A DNA stretch of 36,158 nucleotides from a virus: the IMG/VR virus record IMGVR_UViG_3300044730_001356, positions 1-36,158 of that record. One strand, given 5' to 3'. The notes below the pieces were generated by a model. It did not search any database. It worked only from the letters and a program-made list of their open reading frames with translations, and had not been told where the DNA came from. Both the position numbers and the translations under genes were made by a program. Below, piece by piece: positions 3,861 through 33,008 of the stretch; positions within the stretch are counted from its first letter, which is position 1; each line of letters opens with the position of its first letter.

Positions 3861-3936
3861 TCCTCAGTAGCTCAATCGGCTGAGCATCACGCTGTTAACG
3901 TGGGGGTTGTAGGTTCGAGTCCTACCTGGGGAGCCA
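3861..3936 (+). tRNA. tRNA-Asn (anticodon GTT)
   Basis: A full cloverleaf folds. The acceptor stem TCCTCAG pairs with CTGGGGA (one T-G wobble), and the D-arm stem GCTC pairs with GAGC. The anticodon stem TCACG/CGTGG encloses loop CTGTTAA with GTT at 3894-3896. The T-arm GTAGG/CCTAC encloses TTCGAGT. G is the discriminator and CCA is encoded. It reads AAC and AAT codons. It lies between the small-gene operon and the lysis-region gene on the same strand. The structure and encoded CCA suggest it is functional. Confidence 0.95.
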
Positions 3937-4783: not shown

Positions 4784-7399
4784 TCACACCTCGATCTGTT
4801 TAAAATCGTCCATTATCCGCGAGACATATTCCAGCGTTTCGTGCTTCGGGTCTCGCTTGCGTATCTCTGGCTCTATGTCCTTCCACCGTGGTCCATACTT
4901 GGCAATCCACTTGCGCACCCTGCCCGGTCCAGCGTTGTAAGCTGCTAGCGCTAGCTCTTCATCGCCGCCGAATTGCTTGAGCATCTTGTTTAGGTAGTAG
5001 GTGCCCATTGCGCGGTTGGTATCAGGGTCTTCTAGGTCGTAGTCCTCTAGCCCCATCTCTGCCGCCACCTCTTTTGCCGTATCCGGCATGAGCTGCATGA
5101 GGCCGCGTGCGCCCTTTGGGCTTACTGCCTTGGGGTTGCCCTTGGGGTTGTCCTTATCGGCGCTCTCTTGCTTAATTACTGCTTCTATTAACCTCTCAGA
5201 AGCACTAGGTTTTTTATCCGCTGGATTAGCTTCATCAGTCGGCATAGTCTTTGCCTCAGCTTTTAAGATTGCTTGGTTTAGTTTTGCTTCAAAGGGGTCG
5301 CGATATGTTTGATTGGCTTTATCCTGGGTACTTTGAGAATTTCGACCACTTGAAATTTCTTGTTGGCGCGTTTGTTGTTTTTGCTTTGCACTCCGTGAGC
5401 CACCAGAAACGTCTTGAGCAGAAAGTTCAGGATCTGAACCATCAGATCTCTCAGCTGCTTCAGAAGCCGCGATAGCGCCTAGCGCCTGATACGCTTTGAG
5501 TTGATTTGTCTTAGTCGCCGAACTGCGCAACACCTTCAGAAATTCAGGATCCGCAATTCCTTTAACCATCAACTGCTTAATCTCATCAGCAGTCTTTTTT
5601 GCTAGAAGTGATGTGCCATAAGATGCCATAGCAGCGGGCAGCCCAGAGCCGCTAAGAGCAGCCCCAGTTGAAAACATCCCAACAGTTGTGCTTCCCAGTT
5701 TCTCATAAAGCTCAAGAGGTCCCGTGCTTGCAAGCTTTCGCGCTACTGTGAAAAGGCTTGTTGCTGACTGTCCCTTGCTTGCAGCAGTCGCACGCCGTCC
5801 AATTTCTGAAACTGAATCTATATCCTTTAGAACTGCTTCCACTTCGCCTAAGTCTTTCCCAAATAGCGCTTTAAACTGCCCGCGCTTCTTCTCAAACTTG
5901 GCAAGCAGTCTGCCTCCATCCGTCTTGCCTCCCGCGCTCTTCTGAAGGTCATCAATAAGCGCATAGCGACCGAGATTTATCATCTCAGGTTCATTGCTAA
6001 ATGCTTTTGCAAATTGCTTTGCGCCCTCCTCGGTAGTTGTCACCTTGGCAGGGATTGAAGACTCTCTGAGGCGAAACTGACCGAATTCCCCTTTCTTGAA
6101 GATGTCCCCGACCGCACCCGAATCATAGGTTTGCTTAAATCTTGCAGTTTCTTTGATTGGTCCCGCTGCTATTCCTGCTGCTTTCTCGTCAAGATTAGAG
6201 CGTAGCGCCGCCATAATGGCAGATTCTGAGGCCGCTTGATTCGCATCAGCAGCGCCCTTCACCTCCCCTGCTGCTGACCTAAGTTTGAGATAGTCATCTA
6301 CAGAAAGCGCCGCCGCGCTTCTAGCGCCTTCATCCTTTGGAATTACATCATCGAGGTAATTCATCAGCTTGTTAGCTTTGCTGGATAGGCCCAGTGGCGT
6401 TTCATACGTCCTGCGCGCTGCAAGTACCGCATCATCCAAGCCGGTTACATTTATCTGAGCATCTCGTGGGAGCTGCTGCCAAATTTTTTCGACTGCCCTT
6501 TCTTTGTCTGCTACTAATGGCAAGCCTGATGTTCTTATGGCGTTGCCTAGCTCTGCTGGTGTTACGTTCTCCCCAAGGTAAACGCCTTTTAGCTTGCCTA
6601 GCATGTCCTCTTGAGTGCTTGCACGAAGGCCAAGCGCCTTGGCTATTTCGTTTGCTCCTTCACCTTGATTCATGACAGTTTGAAGACGAGCTGCACTAGG
6701 GGTCTGCGCCATCTCTGCGTAAGTCTTAGGCCCACTTAGGGCTAACGTGTCTCCTGTATCTAGTGCGGTGTTCAAAGCGCGTGCGCCATCATCCCCTGCT
6801 GACTCTAGAAGCTTCTCAAACGCAAGCGCCTTGCGCGCCTTGTCAGATACTAGAGGCGTGATAACTCTCCCACCAGCTTCTAAGATTCCTGGCCCAATCA
6901 TAGAGCCTAGAATATCCGCCCCTTCCGCGCCTATCTCCGCCCCTTTGTTGCCGTAAAAGGCCCCACCGATTGCCTCGCCCACTGGCCGCATTGCCTCGCC
7001 AGAAACTGCGCTTACTCCAGCCAGCCCTAAAGCTTTTGCAATCTGTCCAACTGCTGAATTGATTCCGAGCCCTGTCATGCTGCCTGGAACAAATTCACCT
7101 ATTTTGTGCGGTAGCGTGTCTTCTCCTAGCTTGGTTGAGTTCTCTCTTCCGCTTAGGTAGTCGAACGCGCTTCGCATGGTTCCGCCAAGCGTGGGAGTCA
7201 TCCCAAGCTTTTGATACCTTGCTAAAGCAGGATTCTGTAACCCTGCAAACAGGTCCACCAAGTCGCCTATTCCAGCAGTGCCAGAAAGCACGCCAGAAGC
7301 TGCCGCCTCTATGCCGCTTTCCCCACCCCAGAGCTGATCAAAATCAGGCCGCTCTCCAGCTGGCGTTGATTCCCAAAGCTCATCAAAGCTATCTGCCAT
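4784..7399 (-). CDS. Large ejection/internal virion protein with C-terminal lytic transglycosylase domain
   Basis: The ATG at 7399 is chosen because GAGGAAAG lies directly upstream; a TTG four codons earlier lacks this. The 871-aa product opens with a doubled FDxLW motif. It continues with long alanine/glycine-rich helical regions and ends with an SLT-type domain (last ~145 residues). In that domain VIKQES holds the likely catalytic glutamate, followed by GARGLMQLMP and ALAAYNAGPGRV. Such proteins are injected from podovirus virions to cleave peptidoglycan and help form the DNA channel. It follows two other internal-protein candidates in the late operon. Confidence 0.82.
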   Translation of the reverse strand: MADSFDELWESTPAGERPDFDQLWGGESGIEAAASGVLSGTAGIGDLVDLFAGLQNPALARYQKLGMTPTLGGTMRSAFDYLSGRENSTKLGEDTLPHKIGEFVPGSMTGLGINSAVGQIAKALGLAGVSAVSGEAMRPVGEAIGGAFYGNKGAEIGAEGADILGSMIGPGILEAGGRVITPLVSDKARKALAFEKLLESAGDDGARALNTALDTGDTLALSGPKTYAEMAQTPSAARLQTVMNQGEGANEIAKALGLRASTQEDMLGKLKGVYLGENVTPAELGNAIRTSGLPLVADKERAVEKIWQQLPRDAQINVTGLDDAVLAARRTYETPLGLSSKANKLMNYLDDVIPKDEGARSAAALSVDDYLKLRSAAGEVKGAADANQAASESAIMAALRSNLDEKAAGIAAGPIKETARFKQTYDSGAVGDIFKKGEFGQFRLRESSIPAKVTTTEEGAKQFAKAFSNEPEMINLGRYALIDDLQKSAGGKTDGGRLLAKFEKKRGQFKALFGKDLGEVEAVLKDIDSVSEIGRRATAASKGQSATSLFTVARKLASTGPLELYEKLGSTTVGMFSTGAALSGSGLPAAMASYGTSLLAKKTADEIKQLMVKGIADPEFLKVLRSSATKTNQLKAYQALGAIAASEAAERSDGSDPELSAQDVSGGSRSAKQKQQTRQQEISSGRNSQSTQDKANQTYRDPFEAKLNQAILKAEAKTMPTDEANPADKKPSASERLIEAVIKQESADKDNPKGNPKAVSPKGARGLMQLMPDTAKEVAAEMGLEDYDLEDPDTNRAMGTYYLNKMLKQFGGDEELALAAYNAGPGRVRKWIAKYGPRWKDIEPEIRKRDPKHETLEYVSRIMDDFKQIEV

Positions 7400-12214: not shown

Positions 12215-13796
12215 TGCTTGGCCCCCTTCCGGTGCGTGGTATTGGCTTAGTAGGCGCTGGAGCAGCAACAGGAGCCGCTTGAGCGCCGCCAAAACCTGCT
12301 TGTGATAAATAGGCTTTAAGGTTGGCTTGAAAGGCTGCTTCGCCATTGGCTTTAGGGTCCTCCGGTGCTGCTAAATAAGCCGCTTTAGTTTTGAAGATTT
12401 CATAGTCCTGATCTGAGTCGATCATTCCCTGCTTTTTAAGCTCATCTACATACTGCGTTGCATTGGCCGTATTCATGCCAAACTTAGCCGCTAATGCGCG
12501 TGCGTTTCTGAAGGCGTCTTCATCGTTTTTCGCGCCCTGCATTGCCGCATTTACCATGTAACTTGTGATAGAATCCCGCGTGCCCTCTTTGAAATCGCCG
12601 GAAGCCATTGCCGCCGACCAGCCGACCGGCATCAGTAGAGAGGTCAGCTCAGCCGTGTTGATTCCCTTGTTTGTAGTATCAATCTCGTTGTACCTGCGCT
12701 CTCCCTTGCCATCAGCATTAGCAAGCCGCGCACCGCCATCAGCACCAAAGTTAAACTTCTGCCCGTTGCCTAAGTCTAGGTTGTACTCAGGGTCTAATAT
12801 TCCCTGCTTGGTCATGTACTTGCGCACTCGGTCCCGGTAGAGCTGCGCGCCTGATTTCGTAGAACCCCAGACAAGCTTGTCCACCATTGCAGCGGGGCCG
12901 CCTGTAAAAGGATTCATATGTCTAGCGATTCCCGGCTGATTAGCGCCAGGGGGGGCATACTTAGTAGTGAATCCGGGAACGGAGGTCTGCCTCAGCTCAT
13001 CATCGGTTAGGTTAGTGCCGTAGCCGCCTTTAAGCTTATTGCGGGCCTTTGCGCTTTGGTATGCCGCATATGCTGCAATGATTGCCGCTAGGTAAGGCGC
13101 TGCCGCTGAGAGAGTCCCGGAAACGGTGCTGCCGCCTGTTGCGGTGGTCTGCGTTGCGGCTGTCGTAGCCCCTACCTCTGCCGCTGCTGCGGGGGCTGAT
13201 GCCGCTGCGCTGGTTGCCGCTACCTCTGCCGCCGCCGTTGGGGCAGTTCCAAGAATAGAAGAATTCGCCGCAAATAAAGTGCTTCCATTCACCCCCGTTG
13301 CCACGGGAGTAAATCCCGCAGGAACAGCAGAGGCCGAGGCTGCTGGAACAGAAAAAAGGCCCCCTCCCAACGCCGATGAGCCAGCCGGAAGCGATCCAAG
13401 CCCTGCGGCGCTGGCACTTGCCGCACTTGCTGCCGCTGGTGCTGCTGCGCTTGCTGCTGGCGTAGCTGCTACCGTTGTTGTTTCGGCAGCCTTCATCCCC
13501 AGCTGTTGTAAAATGTAGTCTTTTACTGGCCCAACTACCTGCTTTTGAATAATGGGGCCAAGTACTTTTTCCGCTCCCCACTTAGCCGCAAGCGTTGCCA
13601 ATAGCGCCGCGATTCCTTGCCCTGTGCTGCCACCAGAGCCGCCCCCACCGCCGCCACTGCTAGCACTATCAAGCGCCGCGTCAGCCTCTTCTGCTGACTT
13701 GCCCTGCGAGGCATAGAGCTTGCGCAAGTAGTCCCGTAGCGCGTCATTAAACTGCTGCGGGTTGTAACCTGACTGTGCTGGCTGCTGTGTCGCCAC
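12201..13796 (-). CDS. Alanine-rich virion protein with membrane-like segment (531 aa)
   Basis: It starts with GTG in a TAGTG overlap, after GGAGGG. The N-terminus is helical (NPQQFNDALRDYLRKLYASQ), followed by a glycine tract (about 48-60) and roughly 130 residues dominated by Ala, Ser and Thr. A hydrophobic stretch (AAPYLAAIIAAYAAYQSAKA) comes near residue 235. The C-terminal 280 residues are more globular. The composition suits a protein injected through the envelope, or a flexible tail component. It lies between the head-tail adaptor and the hub gene. No family is recognised with confidence. Confidence 0.55.
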   Translation of the reverse strand: MATQQPAQSGYNPQQFNDALRDYLRKLYASQGKSAEEADAALDSASSGGGGGGSGGSTGQGIAALLATLAAKWGAEKVLGPIIQKQVVGPVKDYILQQLGMKAAETTTVAATPAASAAAPAAASAASASAAGLGSLPAGSSALGGGLFSVPAASASAVPAGFTPVATGVNGSTLFAANSSILGTAPTAAAEVAATSAAASAPAAAAEVGATTAATQTTATGGSTVSGTLSAAAPYLAAIIAAYAAYQSAKARNKLKGGYGTNLTDDELRQTSVPGFTTKYAPPGANQPGIARHMNPFTGGPAAMVDKLVWGSTKSGAQLYRDRVRKYMTKQGILDPEYNLDLGNGQKFNFGADGGARLANADGKGERRYNEIDTTNKGINTAELTSLLMPVGWSAAMASGDFKEGTRDSITSYMVNAAMQGAKNDEDAFRNARALAAKFGMNTANATQYVDELKKQGMIDSDQDYEIFKTKAAYLAAPEDPKANGEAAFQANLKAYLSQAGFGGAQAAPVAAPAPTKPIPRTGRGPSNGKK

Positions 13797-29676: not shown

Positions 29677-29946
29677 TCAAAATGGGATGTCGTCATCTCC
29701 TAGGTTTGAGCCTGATACCTTGGGCGCTGAGGCTGCCTGAGCTTGTATCTCGTCAGCTGCAAGCGCTTTGCAGATAAGCTCCTTGGCTACGCAAAGATCT
29801 GCGCGGTTTAGGTACTGCGTATTTTTCCACTCCTCGCCTTGCTTGTAAGACTTAGAGAACACGTAGCTACTTTGGCCCTTCTCGCCTACGAACAAGGCTA
29901 ATGACACCCCGCCGATCCGATAGTTTGCTTGTGGTTTGTTGCTCAT
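29677..29946 (-). CDS. Small SSB-like protein with acidic DDDIPF tip (89 aa)
   Basis: The ATG follows AAGGAG. The N-terminal 60 residues are a small beta-rich domain (GGVSLALFVGEKGQSSYVFS, then KQGEEWKNTQYLNRADL). A flexible linker ends in DDDIPF, the same type of acidic-hydrophobic tip that bacterial single-strand-binding proteins use to recruit partners. The body is shorter than a canonical OB-fold SSB, so it may be a divergent or minimal phage ssDNA-binding protein. It lies just downstream of replication genes. Role inferred from the tip and context. Confidence 0.55.
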   Translation of the reverse strand: MSNKPQANYRIGGVSLALFVGEKGQSSYVFSKSYKQGEEWKNTQYLNRADLCVAKELICKALAADEIQAQAASAPKVSGSNLGDDDIPF

Positions 29947-30332: not shown

Positions 30333-30688
30333 ACGTCACCCGCCTCCGCTTTGTCGTAGCCGTATTCTAGGGAAGGCATGAGGTCTTCAATGTTGCCAAG
30401 CAGCCTTTTAGGCGAATACTTAATAGGCTTCCCGCTGTCGCGCTGCTCATAGCGATCAACAGCTGGGTTGCGCATCTCGTACACCTGACCGCCGCCGTCC
30501 ATCGCTTTGTAACGCTTCAAGCCCTCTTTCTCGTACCACTTGGAATAGAACTCATCGCGCTCAGCGCCTGTTGTTCTCATGGTTTCCGGCATCTCCGCAT
30601 ATGGGCTAGGAGGTGCCTCGTTTATGGGGGGTAAGTGCGCTAGCACTCTGCGAAATCTCGAAAGGCGCTGCTCGTGATTCATGCTCAT
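30320..30688 (-). CDS. Small phage protein, function unknown (122 aa)
   Basis: Its ATG overlaps the stop of the replication initiator (ATGA). The protein is charged with a helical start (MNHEQRLSRFRRVLAHLPPI), a glycine-rich middle and several tyrosines. No cysteine motif or catalytic signature is visible. Coupling to the initiator gene suggests a role in replication (inference). It could be a loader or adaptor protein. Confidence 0.55.
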   Translation of the reverse strand: MSMNHEQRLSRFRRVLAHLPPINEAPPSPYAEMPETMRTTGAERDEFYSKWYEKEGLKRYKAMDGGGQVYEMRNPAVDRYEQRDSGKPIKYSPKRLLGNIEDLMPSLEYGYDKAEAGDVWRR

Positions 30689-31632
30689 ACGCGGGCCGCC
30701 TCCTTCGCATTTACCAGGTAGGCTTCAGAGCGCTCTAGGTCGAGCTTGGCTTTTCGTTTTTTAAGGTAGTCTTCGAGTAGAAAGCCGGTAAGCCACTTGA
30801 AAGAGCTGGTCATTTGGGGGTCTATGCCCTTTCCCTTTTTTTCCAGCATTCCAGCTTCACAAGCTGCGAGAAGGTGCTTCAGCTCGCGTTTGACCACCTT
30901 CGCCTCCTGGAACTGCTCCAGCATCATCACGAACTCAGCGCGGTTCAGCCAAACGTTGGGGTAGTCTTTAAGCGGGCGTCTTCCCGTGGTGATGTAAACC
31001 CTAGATTTTCTGACCACTTCCGAGGTCTCGGGGGTCAGCATTTCCTCGGCAAAGCTCTCAAGCTGGCCTTCTGGGGGCTTGCTGCTTGGCATTTCGGGTG
31101 GGGGTAATTGGTTCCCCTCTGCACTCCCCTCCGATCTGTAAAGTTTATTGTTAGTGTTATGGTTAGTGTTAGTGATATTAATAGGAGCGGTCGAGAATTC
31201 AGGGAGAATTCTCGCAGGATTCACGCTCCTTTCTGCCTGAACACCCACACGCTTATTACGTGCTTCCACATAATTTCTACGCTTAGAGAAAAACTTCTCT
31301 CTAGCCTTCATTATAGTAGGGTGAAAAAGGCTCCCGTCTTGCTCCTTGTAGAGAAGCTTCAAATCAAGCGCGGTTTGAATAACCTGCGACATGACATCGC
31401 ACCCCATACCGGCAGCACGACCAAGCACTAGCGCGCTCTCATAATCAAGCCGCCCGTCAGCGCTGTTAGTCAGCCATGACCAAATATGCAGCACTTGCAA
31501 AGCTGCACCTGGTCCGTGCTTGTCTATAAGGCGTAAGGTCTTTGGGTCAGAAAAAAAGCCCGACTCTAGCAAAAACGCTGGAGGGGCTTTTTCCGTCTTG
31601 ATGTCTAAATTATCTTGTGGTGTACTTTCCAT
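30685..31632 (-). CDS. Replication initiator-like protein (winged-helix, 315 aa)
   Basis: The N-terminal part matches the winged-helix replication-initiator/DnaD-like (Lin1244-type) pattern: ESGFFSDPKTLRLIDKHGPG (24-43), LQVLHIWSWLTNSADGRL, and a DNA-recognition helix region (VIQTALDLKLLYKEQDGSLF). It is followed by a basic helix (KFFSKRRNYVEARNKRVG). A low-complexity linker (NITNTNHNTNN) then joins a helical C-terminal part, as in lambda-O-type proteins that recruit helicase. Repeats in the linker DNA could be the origin. The start codon lies in a perfect hairpin. Confidence 0.7.
   Translation of the reverse strand: MESTPQDNLDIKTEKAPPAFLLESGFFSDPKTLRLIDKHGPGAALQVLHIWSWLTNSADGRLDYESALVLGRAAGMGCDVMSQVIQTALDLKLLYKEQDGSLFHPTIMKAREKFFSKRRNYVEARNKRVGVQAERSVNPARILPEFSTAPINITNTNHNTNNKLYRSEGSAEGNQLPPPEMPSSKPPEGQLESFAEEMLTPETSEVVRKSRVYITTGRRPLKDYPNVWLNRAEFVMMLEQFQEAKVVKRELKHLLAACEAGMLEKKGKGIDPQMTSSFKWLTGFLLEDYLKKRKAKLDLERSEAYLVNAKEAARV
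31143..31213. repeat. Candidate replication origin repeats inside the initiator gene
   Basis: The plus strand shows consecutive hexamers GTTAGT, GTTATG, GTTAGT and GTTAGT at 31150-31173, in an A+T-rich stretch. Two GAGAATTC copies 11 bases apart follow at 31193-31200 and 31204-31211, the second extending into GAATTCTC. Their place, in the low-complexity linker of an initiator gene, resembles lambda-type origins. Confidence 0.4.
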
Positions 31633-31664
31633 GCGGGTGTTTCCTTAATTCATGCCACCCGCAT
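31631..31664 (-). promoter_or_regulatory. Hairpin covering the initiator start codon
   Basis: A perfect 9-bp inverted repeat, ATGCGGGTG (31631-31639) with CACCCGCAT (31656-31664), includes most of the initiator ATG in its downstream arm. The 16-base loop contains AAGGAAA, the likely ribosome-binding site. It could limit initiation, or serve as a binding site for a regulator such as the initiator itself. Confidence 0.6.
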
Positions 31665-31669
31665 CCTTT

Positions 31670-31699
31670 AAATACCCGCCTCGTGAGCGGGTATTTTTC
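31670..31699. terminator. Bidirectional terminator-like hairpin upstream of the initiator
   Basis: ATACCCGC (31672-31679) pairs perfectly with GCGGGTAT (31687-31694) around a 7-base loop. It is followed by TTTTTC on the plus strand and by TTTAAAGG on the minus strand. It is a strong terminator for plus-strand transcripts and a weaker one or attenuator in the initiator leader. Confidence 0.7.
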
Positions 31700-31800
31700 T
31701 ATCTATTTCAAGCGTTTACAGCTAAACCCCACAATTTTACAAATTTGTGAGATCCGCCTTTACGCTCAGAACAGAGCAGCGGGTAGTAGATGCAGCAATG

Positions 31801-31818
31801 GTATGACCAAAATCATAC
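31801..31818. promoter_or_regulatory. Operator-like dyad GTATGA-N6-TCATAC
   Basis: Perfect 6-base arms separated by CCAAAA give an 18-base dyad of a size suited to a dimeric HTH repressor. It lies in the intergenic region upstream of the initiator gene. No matching copy was seen in the 34.9-kb control region, so the cognate regulator is unknown. Confidence 0.4.
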
Positions 31819-31899
31819 TAGCGGCAAGCTAAAAAGTTAGATGCGCTTTGTATTTTTTCGGTGTGCGCCTATAGCACTTATTAGGTGTGAAATCTCATT

Positions 31900-31928
31900 T
31901 TAAACCCCCCTAAATTTGAGGGGTTTTC
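31900..31928. terminator. Terminator hairpin downstream of integrase (bidirectional)
   Basis: AAACCCC (31902-31908) pairs with GGGGTTT (31920-31926) around an 11-base loop, with TTTT on the plus side and a TTTAAAA run on the minus side. It probably ends minus-strand integrase transcripts 100 bases after the gene and also stops opposite-strand transcription. Confidence 0.6.
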
Positions 31929-31974
31929 AAGGAGGTTAACTTGTCAGATCTGCGCAGGTTGTCCTCATGGAAAT

Positions 31975-32022
31975 AGGTGGAAAATAGAAATTAATATTCA
32001 TCCCTAATTATCCACCTTTTTT
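31975..32022 (+). terminator. Possible plus-strand terminator facing the integrase 3' end
   Basis: AGGTGGA (31975-31981) is complementary to TCCACCT (32011-32017), followed by a run of six T. The loop is long (29 bases), though ATTA/TAAT inside can pair. It could block transcription entering the integrase gene from the wrong side; low certainty. Confidence 0.3.
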
Positions 32023-32028
32023 CTGCTG

Positions 32029-32970: not shown

Positions 32971-33008
32971 AAAAAAAGCCGCGTGGCACTGGAGGAGCAC
33001 CACGCGGC
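32971..33008 (-). terminator. Strong intrinsic terminator of the early leftward operon
   Basis: GCCGCGTGG (32978-32986) pairs perfectly over 9 bp with CCACGCGGC (33000-33008). On the minus strand it is followed by a run of seven T. It lies 14 bases after the recombinase stop and before the integrase start, so it insulates integrase from the early leftward transcript. Confidence 0.9.

Follow-up and report, generated by a model that had tools for sequence, protein, structure and literature searches.

Does the leader of a probable phage replication gene act as an RNA switch, or do the hairpins crowded around its start codon restrain expression in some other way? The question arises on the minus strand of IMG/VR virus record IMGVR_UViG_3300044730_001356, a linear record of 36,158 bases that was analyzed whole (hereafter the window) and that encodes a terminase, a portal, a major head protein, an integrase, RecT, and a Gam-like protein. 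An original prediction had pointed to two stems at this locus, one closing on the start codon and one just upstream, and had proposed that the two are mutually exclusive and might form an attenuator or an autoregulated switch.

In this study, we examine the leader and the first codons of the gene by folding computation, by shuffling, and by searches for relatives. The two stems, here called H1 (upstream) and H2 (at the start codon), do not exchange partners, and a third hairpin, H3, lies a short way inside the gene. The reading that we tentatively favor is of a cis-acting double lock on the phage replication operon, in which H2 would lower translation of the initiator and H3 would end mRNA left unshielded by ribosomes. 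The finding is a modest one, because its components are of already known kinds and because the initiator is without close relatives in the collections searched.

Results

The probable initiator gene and its setting

The gene at issue (30685-31632, minus strand) encodes a 315-aa protein that is probably a replication initiator, or replisome organizer. We call it an initiator only as a probable assignment, since the sole family evidence is a weak match to phrog_13246 (E 3.4e-4); no Pfam or NCBIfam family matched above cut-off, and the single-sequence structure model was unreliable (pLDDT 47), of low confidence at the N-terminus, and too poor for a fold search. Small genes come after it, among them one for an 89-aa protein (29677-29946, minus strand) that matched no family and whose C-terminal DDDIPF is an acidic tail like that of single-strand-binding proteins.

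Searched against plasmids, phage records, and viral contigs, with E values as high as 1 admitted, the initiator protein had no match, nor had it any in four genomes with distant terminase relatives or in the 369 and 289 genomes sampled from the classes of two such genomes. Likewise, no relative bearing either the initiator gene or its leader appeared among the viral contigs, phage records, plasmids, and about 660 sampled bacterial genomes; these collections may leave out records very near the window, and the absence of relatives is not proof. The integrase and RecT were also without relatives in the collections tried. The phage is nonetheless not a singleton, because three viral contigs from other metagenomes (L002, L003, and L024) carry a terminase that is 96-100% identical; all three stop short of the initiator. 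A further terminase relative, L007, has a different replication module and, as a separate observation, carries long repeats of Gly-Arg/Asp-His-Arg type in several frames (6218-7134) upstream of a 207-aa Ala-rich ORF. DNA patterns for H1 and for the H1/H2 junction matched no other contig, and the pattern for the H2 stem matched six contigs (four distinct sequences), none of them where a related gene begins.

Between the integrase stop and the initiator start lies an untranslated stretch of 396 nt (31633-32028, minus strand), within which no gene is listed on that strand, and the whole leader (31540-32028) folds better than its shuffles (z -5.7). On the plus strand the same gap contains a hairpin, a full AAGGAGG Shine-Dalgarno, and an 11-codon TTG mini-ORF (MSDLRRLSSWK), all within 31902-32021, together with an inverted repeat that resembles a terminator and runs into TTTTTT (31971-32021); these features could possibly represent a small RNA or a leader peptide. 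Farther upstream, the window's top-ranking terminator-like site on the sense strand (32978-33008, minus strand; -23.7 kcal/mol, T7) sits directly 3' of recT and 62 nt ahead of the integrase start, so the integrase and initiator may need a promoter of their own or antitermination. The phage also carries a tRNA-Asn (GTT) at 3861-3936 on the plus strand.

A perfect hairpin closes on the start codon

The 9-bp perfect hairpin that had been described as taking in the initiator start codon is present. In H2 (31631-31664, minus strand), ATGCGGGTG (31664-31656) pairs with CACCCGCAT (31639-31631) at nine of nine positions around a 16-nt loop, at -14.9 kcal/mol. Within the start codon AUG (31632-31630), only the A and the U are paired, as the last two pairs of the stem. 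The ribosome-binding site, said to be enclosed by the hairpin, does lie within the loop (AAGGAA, 31641-31646, minus strand; 10 nt from AGG to AUG) but is not base-paired, being 92-100% unpaired in the folding computation. A stable helix that includes the AUG and/or the Shine-Dalgarno is the mark of inhibitory start-region hairpins of the T4 type, and H2 has such a helix.

Of the window's 52 gene starts examined, only that of the initiator bears a perfect 9-bp stem; three others reach 7 bp. Opening its footprint from -15 to +15 costs 13.4 kcal/mol in local context, as against -6.1 kcal/mol from the duplex of its Shine-Dalgarno with the anti-Shine-Dalgarno. This cost resembles that of two other window genes tested. 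In a separate ranking by raw opening cost, the initiator comes 14th among 53 gene starts and does not stand out. Nor can H2 be melted by translation from upstream, because a stop codon interrupts the initiator frame five codons ahead of the ATG and the 396 nt upstream are untranslated. A five-codon upstream ORF (ATG CGG GTG GCA TGA; 31650-31664, minus strand) does lie on the 5' arm of H2; it is devoid of a well-spaced Shine-Dalgarno, and that it would be functional is doubtful.

H1 and H2 fold side by side

The separate stem just upstream, predicted at 8 bp and as terminator-like, also exists, at a greater length. H1 (31670-31696, minus strand) is a perfect stem of 10 bp (11 with a U-G pair on the minus strand) between AAATACCCGC and GCGGGTATTT, with a loop of UCACGAG or CACGA and an energy of -15.2 kcal/mol. 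Its terminator-like character holds for the plus strand, where the tail reads ATTTTTC; the stem is followed on the initiator-sense (minus) strand by ATTTAAAGG, a weak tail, and H1 as a sense-strand attenuator was rejected on this ground. No sense-strand intrinsic terminator, that is a stem with a U-tract, was found within the leader, and the U-tract site on that strand is H3, inside the gene.

Both stems use a GCGGGT element able to pair with its complement, as the original prediction held, and the shared cores are complementary in both arrangements. An exchange of partners between H1 and H2 (arm A with C, arm B with D) could thereby be imagined as a terminator/antiterminator or on/off pair, yet the folding computations make this hardly credible. 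The arms, four in all, are distinct, and both hairpins coexist in the minimum-energy structure, at -32.4 kcal/mol together, whereas forced pairing of the two 5' arms gives -13.1 kcal/mol and of the two 3' arms -16.8 kcal/mol, a swap of partners costing 15.6-19.3 kcal/mol. In a growing chain, H1 forms first and persists, and H2 arises later alongside it. The switch called for an effect of the upstream stem on the start-codon hairpin, and when the 5' arm of H1 was blocked the H2 stem was still intact. In an attenuator, two structures of similar stability exclude each other; here the exchanged folds are too weak, H1 has no sense-strand U-tract, and neither mutual exclusion nor attenuation is supported for this pair.

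The hairpin cluster and its GCGGGT core

The 36 kb contain eight perfect stems of at least 9 bp. Three of these, H1, H2, and H3, fall within 146 nt, a stretch whose shuffles never held even two such stems (0 of 4,000). When the 81-nt leader was shuffled 20,000 times, one perfect stem of at least 9 bp appeared in 0.14% and two in none, and the joint fold of H1 and H2, at -32.4 kcal/mol, was matched by none of 200 shuffles (z -5.9). The existence of the hairpins is confirmed, and chance falls far short of explaining them. Because the start-codon hairpin and the adjacent stem with the same core exceed chance and stand ahead of a probable replication gene, translational control is plausible. Two further features of the region are a palindromic, operator-like stretch in the leader, CACAATTTTACAAATTTGTG (31724-31760), whose minus-strand RNA also folds as a stable hairpin, and another perfect 9-bp hairpin (CGAGAATTC / GAATTCTCG; 31192-31214) within the initiator gene.

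The core is itself clustered, with 5 of the 23 GCGGGT/ACCCGC sites of the window lying within the 152 bp from 31633 to 31784; the fifth copy (31779-31784, plus strand) is outside any hairpin. Such a cluster would also be expected if the cores were half-sites on DNA for a dimeric protein, either a repressor or the initiator, with the RNA folding as a by-product of the inverted repeats, and in the two inverted repeats the half-sites stand 13 and 24 bp apart, a difference of about one helical turn. We consider this quite unlikely, however, as the spacing is inconstant, the stems run well past the core and have differing flanks, there is no direct iteron array and no cluster of the motif elsewhere near regulatory genes, and H3 is left unexplained.

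A terminator-like hairpin inside the gene

H3, AAAAAGCCC...GGGCTTTTT (31551-31592, minus strand), did not figure in the original prediction. It sits 40-80 nt into the initiator coding sequence, in codons 14-28, with the hairpin at 31592-31553 and a sense U7 at 31557-31551, and the protein segment encoded there belongs to the low-confidence N-terminus. It is terminator-like on both strands and among the strongest such sites in the window, ranking third on the minus strand (-19.3), behind the site downstream of recT (-23.7) and a site at 13278 (-20.8), and first on the plus strand (-21.6). When synonymous codons were shuffled over the whole initiator gene, 1.3% of the shuffles (fraction 0.013) had a sense site at least as strong, and codon sampling of the H3 segment gave fractions of 0.027 for the sense and 0.007 for the antisense strand. 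These values suggest that H3, as a GC-containing stem with a U-tract in coding sequence, lies beyond codon-shuffle chance, though modestly and as a site spotted post hoc. The antisense orientation fits as well as the sense orientation or better, and the codon shuffles do not settle which of the two strands matters.

Two close rivals of the double lock have to be weighed at this point. The first is an antisense RNA like those of plasmid rep genes: a plus-strand transcript that would begin inside the initiator gene or at its start, end at H3 (31592) or at H1 (31697), expose in its loop UUUCCUU, the complement of the Shine-Dalgarno, and pair with the leader to block translation or favor termination. 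Consistent with this, the U-tract of H1 is on the plus strand, where no gene lies, H3 is the best plus-strand terminator-like site of the window, its antisense hairpin is the less likely of the two by codon shuffling, and the geometry matches that of pMV158 RNAII and pIP501 RNAIII (PMC4485353, PMC4981023). The plus strand at 31609-31699 also shows sub-threshold similarity to the RNAI and leader families of Rfam, in the form of two hairpins ending in a terminator. The similarity is, however, far below gathering scores: none of the leader and antisense families (Leu_leader, Trp_leader, RNAI, C4) reached its gathering threshold, the best score being 25.5 against 50 bits, and membership of the leader in an Rfam family was rejected for that reason. 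The plus strand has the terminator-like ends that an antisense rep leader calls for, but its promoter candidate (31598/31621) is not convincing, with a score of 8.3 inside the background of 4.2-10.2 and no A at -11. On balance we consider an antisense RNA unlikely.

The second rival, to which we give some weight while thinking it rather improbable, takes the hairpins as unlinked parts, H1 and H3 being bidirectional intrinsic terminators or insulators, as their A-tract/T-tract symmetry would allow, and H2 a constitutive translation brake, with no coupling or switching among them. Both terminators have A-rich and T-rich flanks, H1 and H2 fold independently, and no communication among the parts is required. 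Nevertheless, an essential gene with an uncoupled terminator in its codons 14-28 would curtail its own expression, barring suppression by ribosomes or antitermination, and the plus strand has no convergent gene from which to insulate.

Discussion

The double lock is favored by the cluster of three stems within 146 nt, by the sole window start covered by a 9-bp stem, by an opening cost of 13.4 kcal/mol set against -6.1 kcal/mol of Shine-Dalgarno pairing, by the absence of translation that could melt H2, and by the rank and codon shuffles of H3. Against it stand the unpaired Shine-Dalgarno, the mere two AUG bases in the stem, the 14th place of the opening cost, and the modest, post hoc nature of H3, which fits an antisense role equally well or better. 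From the hairpins, the U7 tail, and their positions, which the sequence and the folding computations give directly, we infer an effect on translation, a termination of transcription, and a coupling of the two. H2 would close on the start codon, keep the Shine-Dalgarno in a constrained loop, and lower ribosome loading on leaky or read-through transcripts arriving from the integrase side. On mRNA without a leading ribosome, H3 would fold, and RNA polymerase would stop before the rest of the replication operon. Should transcription be strong, antitermination intervene, or some factor open H2, the ribosome would start and cover H3, and expression would continue. H1 would mainly insulate or stabilize the leader, and could end antisense transcription on the other strand. 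A stricter form of the idea, in which H2 gates the intragenic terminator such that transcription of the whole operon depends solely on whether ribosomes load onto the first gene, possibly with opening in trans by a short RNA that ends at H1 and shares the ACCCGC/GCGGGT core, strikes us as a good deal less likely.

If real, the double lock would be a compact means of silencing temperate-phage replication when transcription leaks, and one that needs no further regulator, whether protein or RNA. It predicts that loss of the initiator start codon shortens the transcript of the replication operon at one place.

In phage P4 immunity and in the C4 RNA systems of P1 and P7, blocked translation leads to early termination of an operon through a trans-acting RNA and largely through Rho. 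The arrangement proposed here would similarly make further transcription of a phage operon, for replication or anti-immunity, depend on translation. It differs in that H3 is a site of intrinsic type, and searches for C4 RNA gave no match in the window at gathering scores and, with E values up to 10 allowed, none in the leader.

In phage T4, start-region mRNA helices that contain the start codon and/or the Shine-Dalgarno lower 30S binding on transcripts of genes e, soc, 49, and I-TevI that come from upstream, and a late promoter within the 5' arm of the e hairpin yields late transcripts without it (PMC3014915). The H2 helix likewise takes in the start codon, and judged by sequence the leader may work as the T4 inhibitory hairpins do; unlike in T4, the Shine-Dalgarno of H2 is unpaired in the loop and the gene is a probable replication gene. 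Among sigma-70-like sites, the class scanned, none is well placed to act as a T4-style promoter in the 5' arm of H2.

In the Gifsy-1 prophage, a leader with a terminator hairpin, IsrK, precedes the translationally inactive orf45-anrP mRNA, and the terminated form of IsrK, a demonstrated sRNA, opens that mRNA in trans (PMC4825925). The leader studied here also has a hairpin followed by a putatively translation-inactive mRNA of the next gene, although the sense-strand terminator tail of H1 is weak. RNA-controlled rep leaders are established for pIP501, by RNAIII attenuation (PMC4981023), and for pMV158, by RNAII (PMC4485353). With these our locus shares a structured initiator leader and an opposite-strand, terminator-bearing structure over the start region; it departs from them in that a terminator/antiterminator exchange is unsupported and the antisense RNA is only hypothetical. 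Finally, phage lambda has a counter-directed terminator, tO, just upstream of gene O, with OOP RNA overlapping the end of cII (PMC5869508). The counter-directed hairpins of the present phage differ in position, covering the leader and the start of the initiator gene itself, and the two phages are alike in having a counter-directed terminator or terminator-like hairpin beside a known or probable replication initiator gene of a temperate phage.
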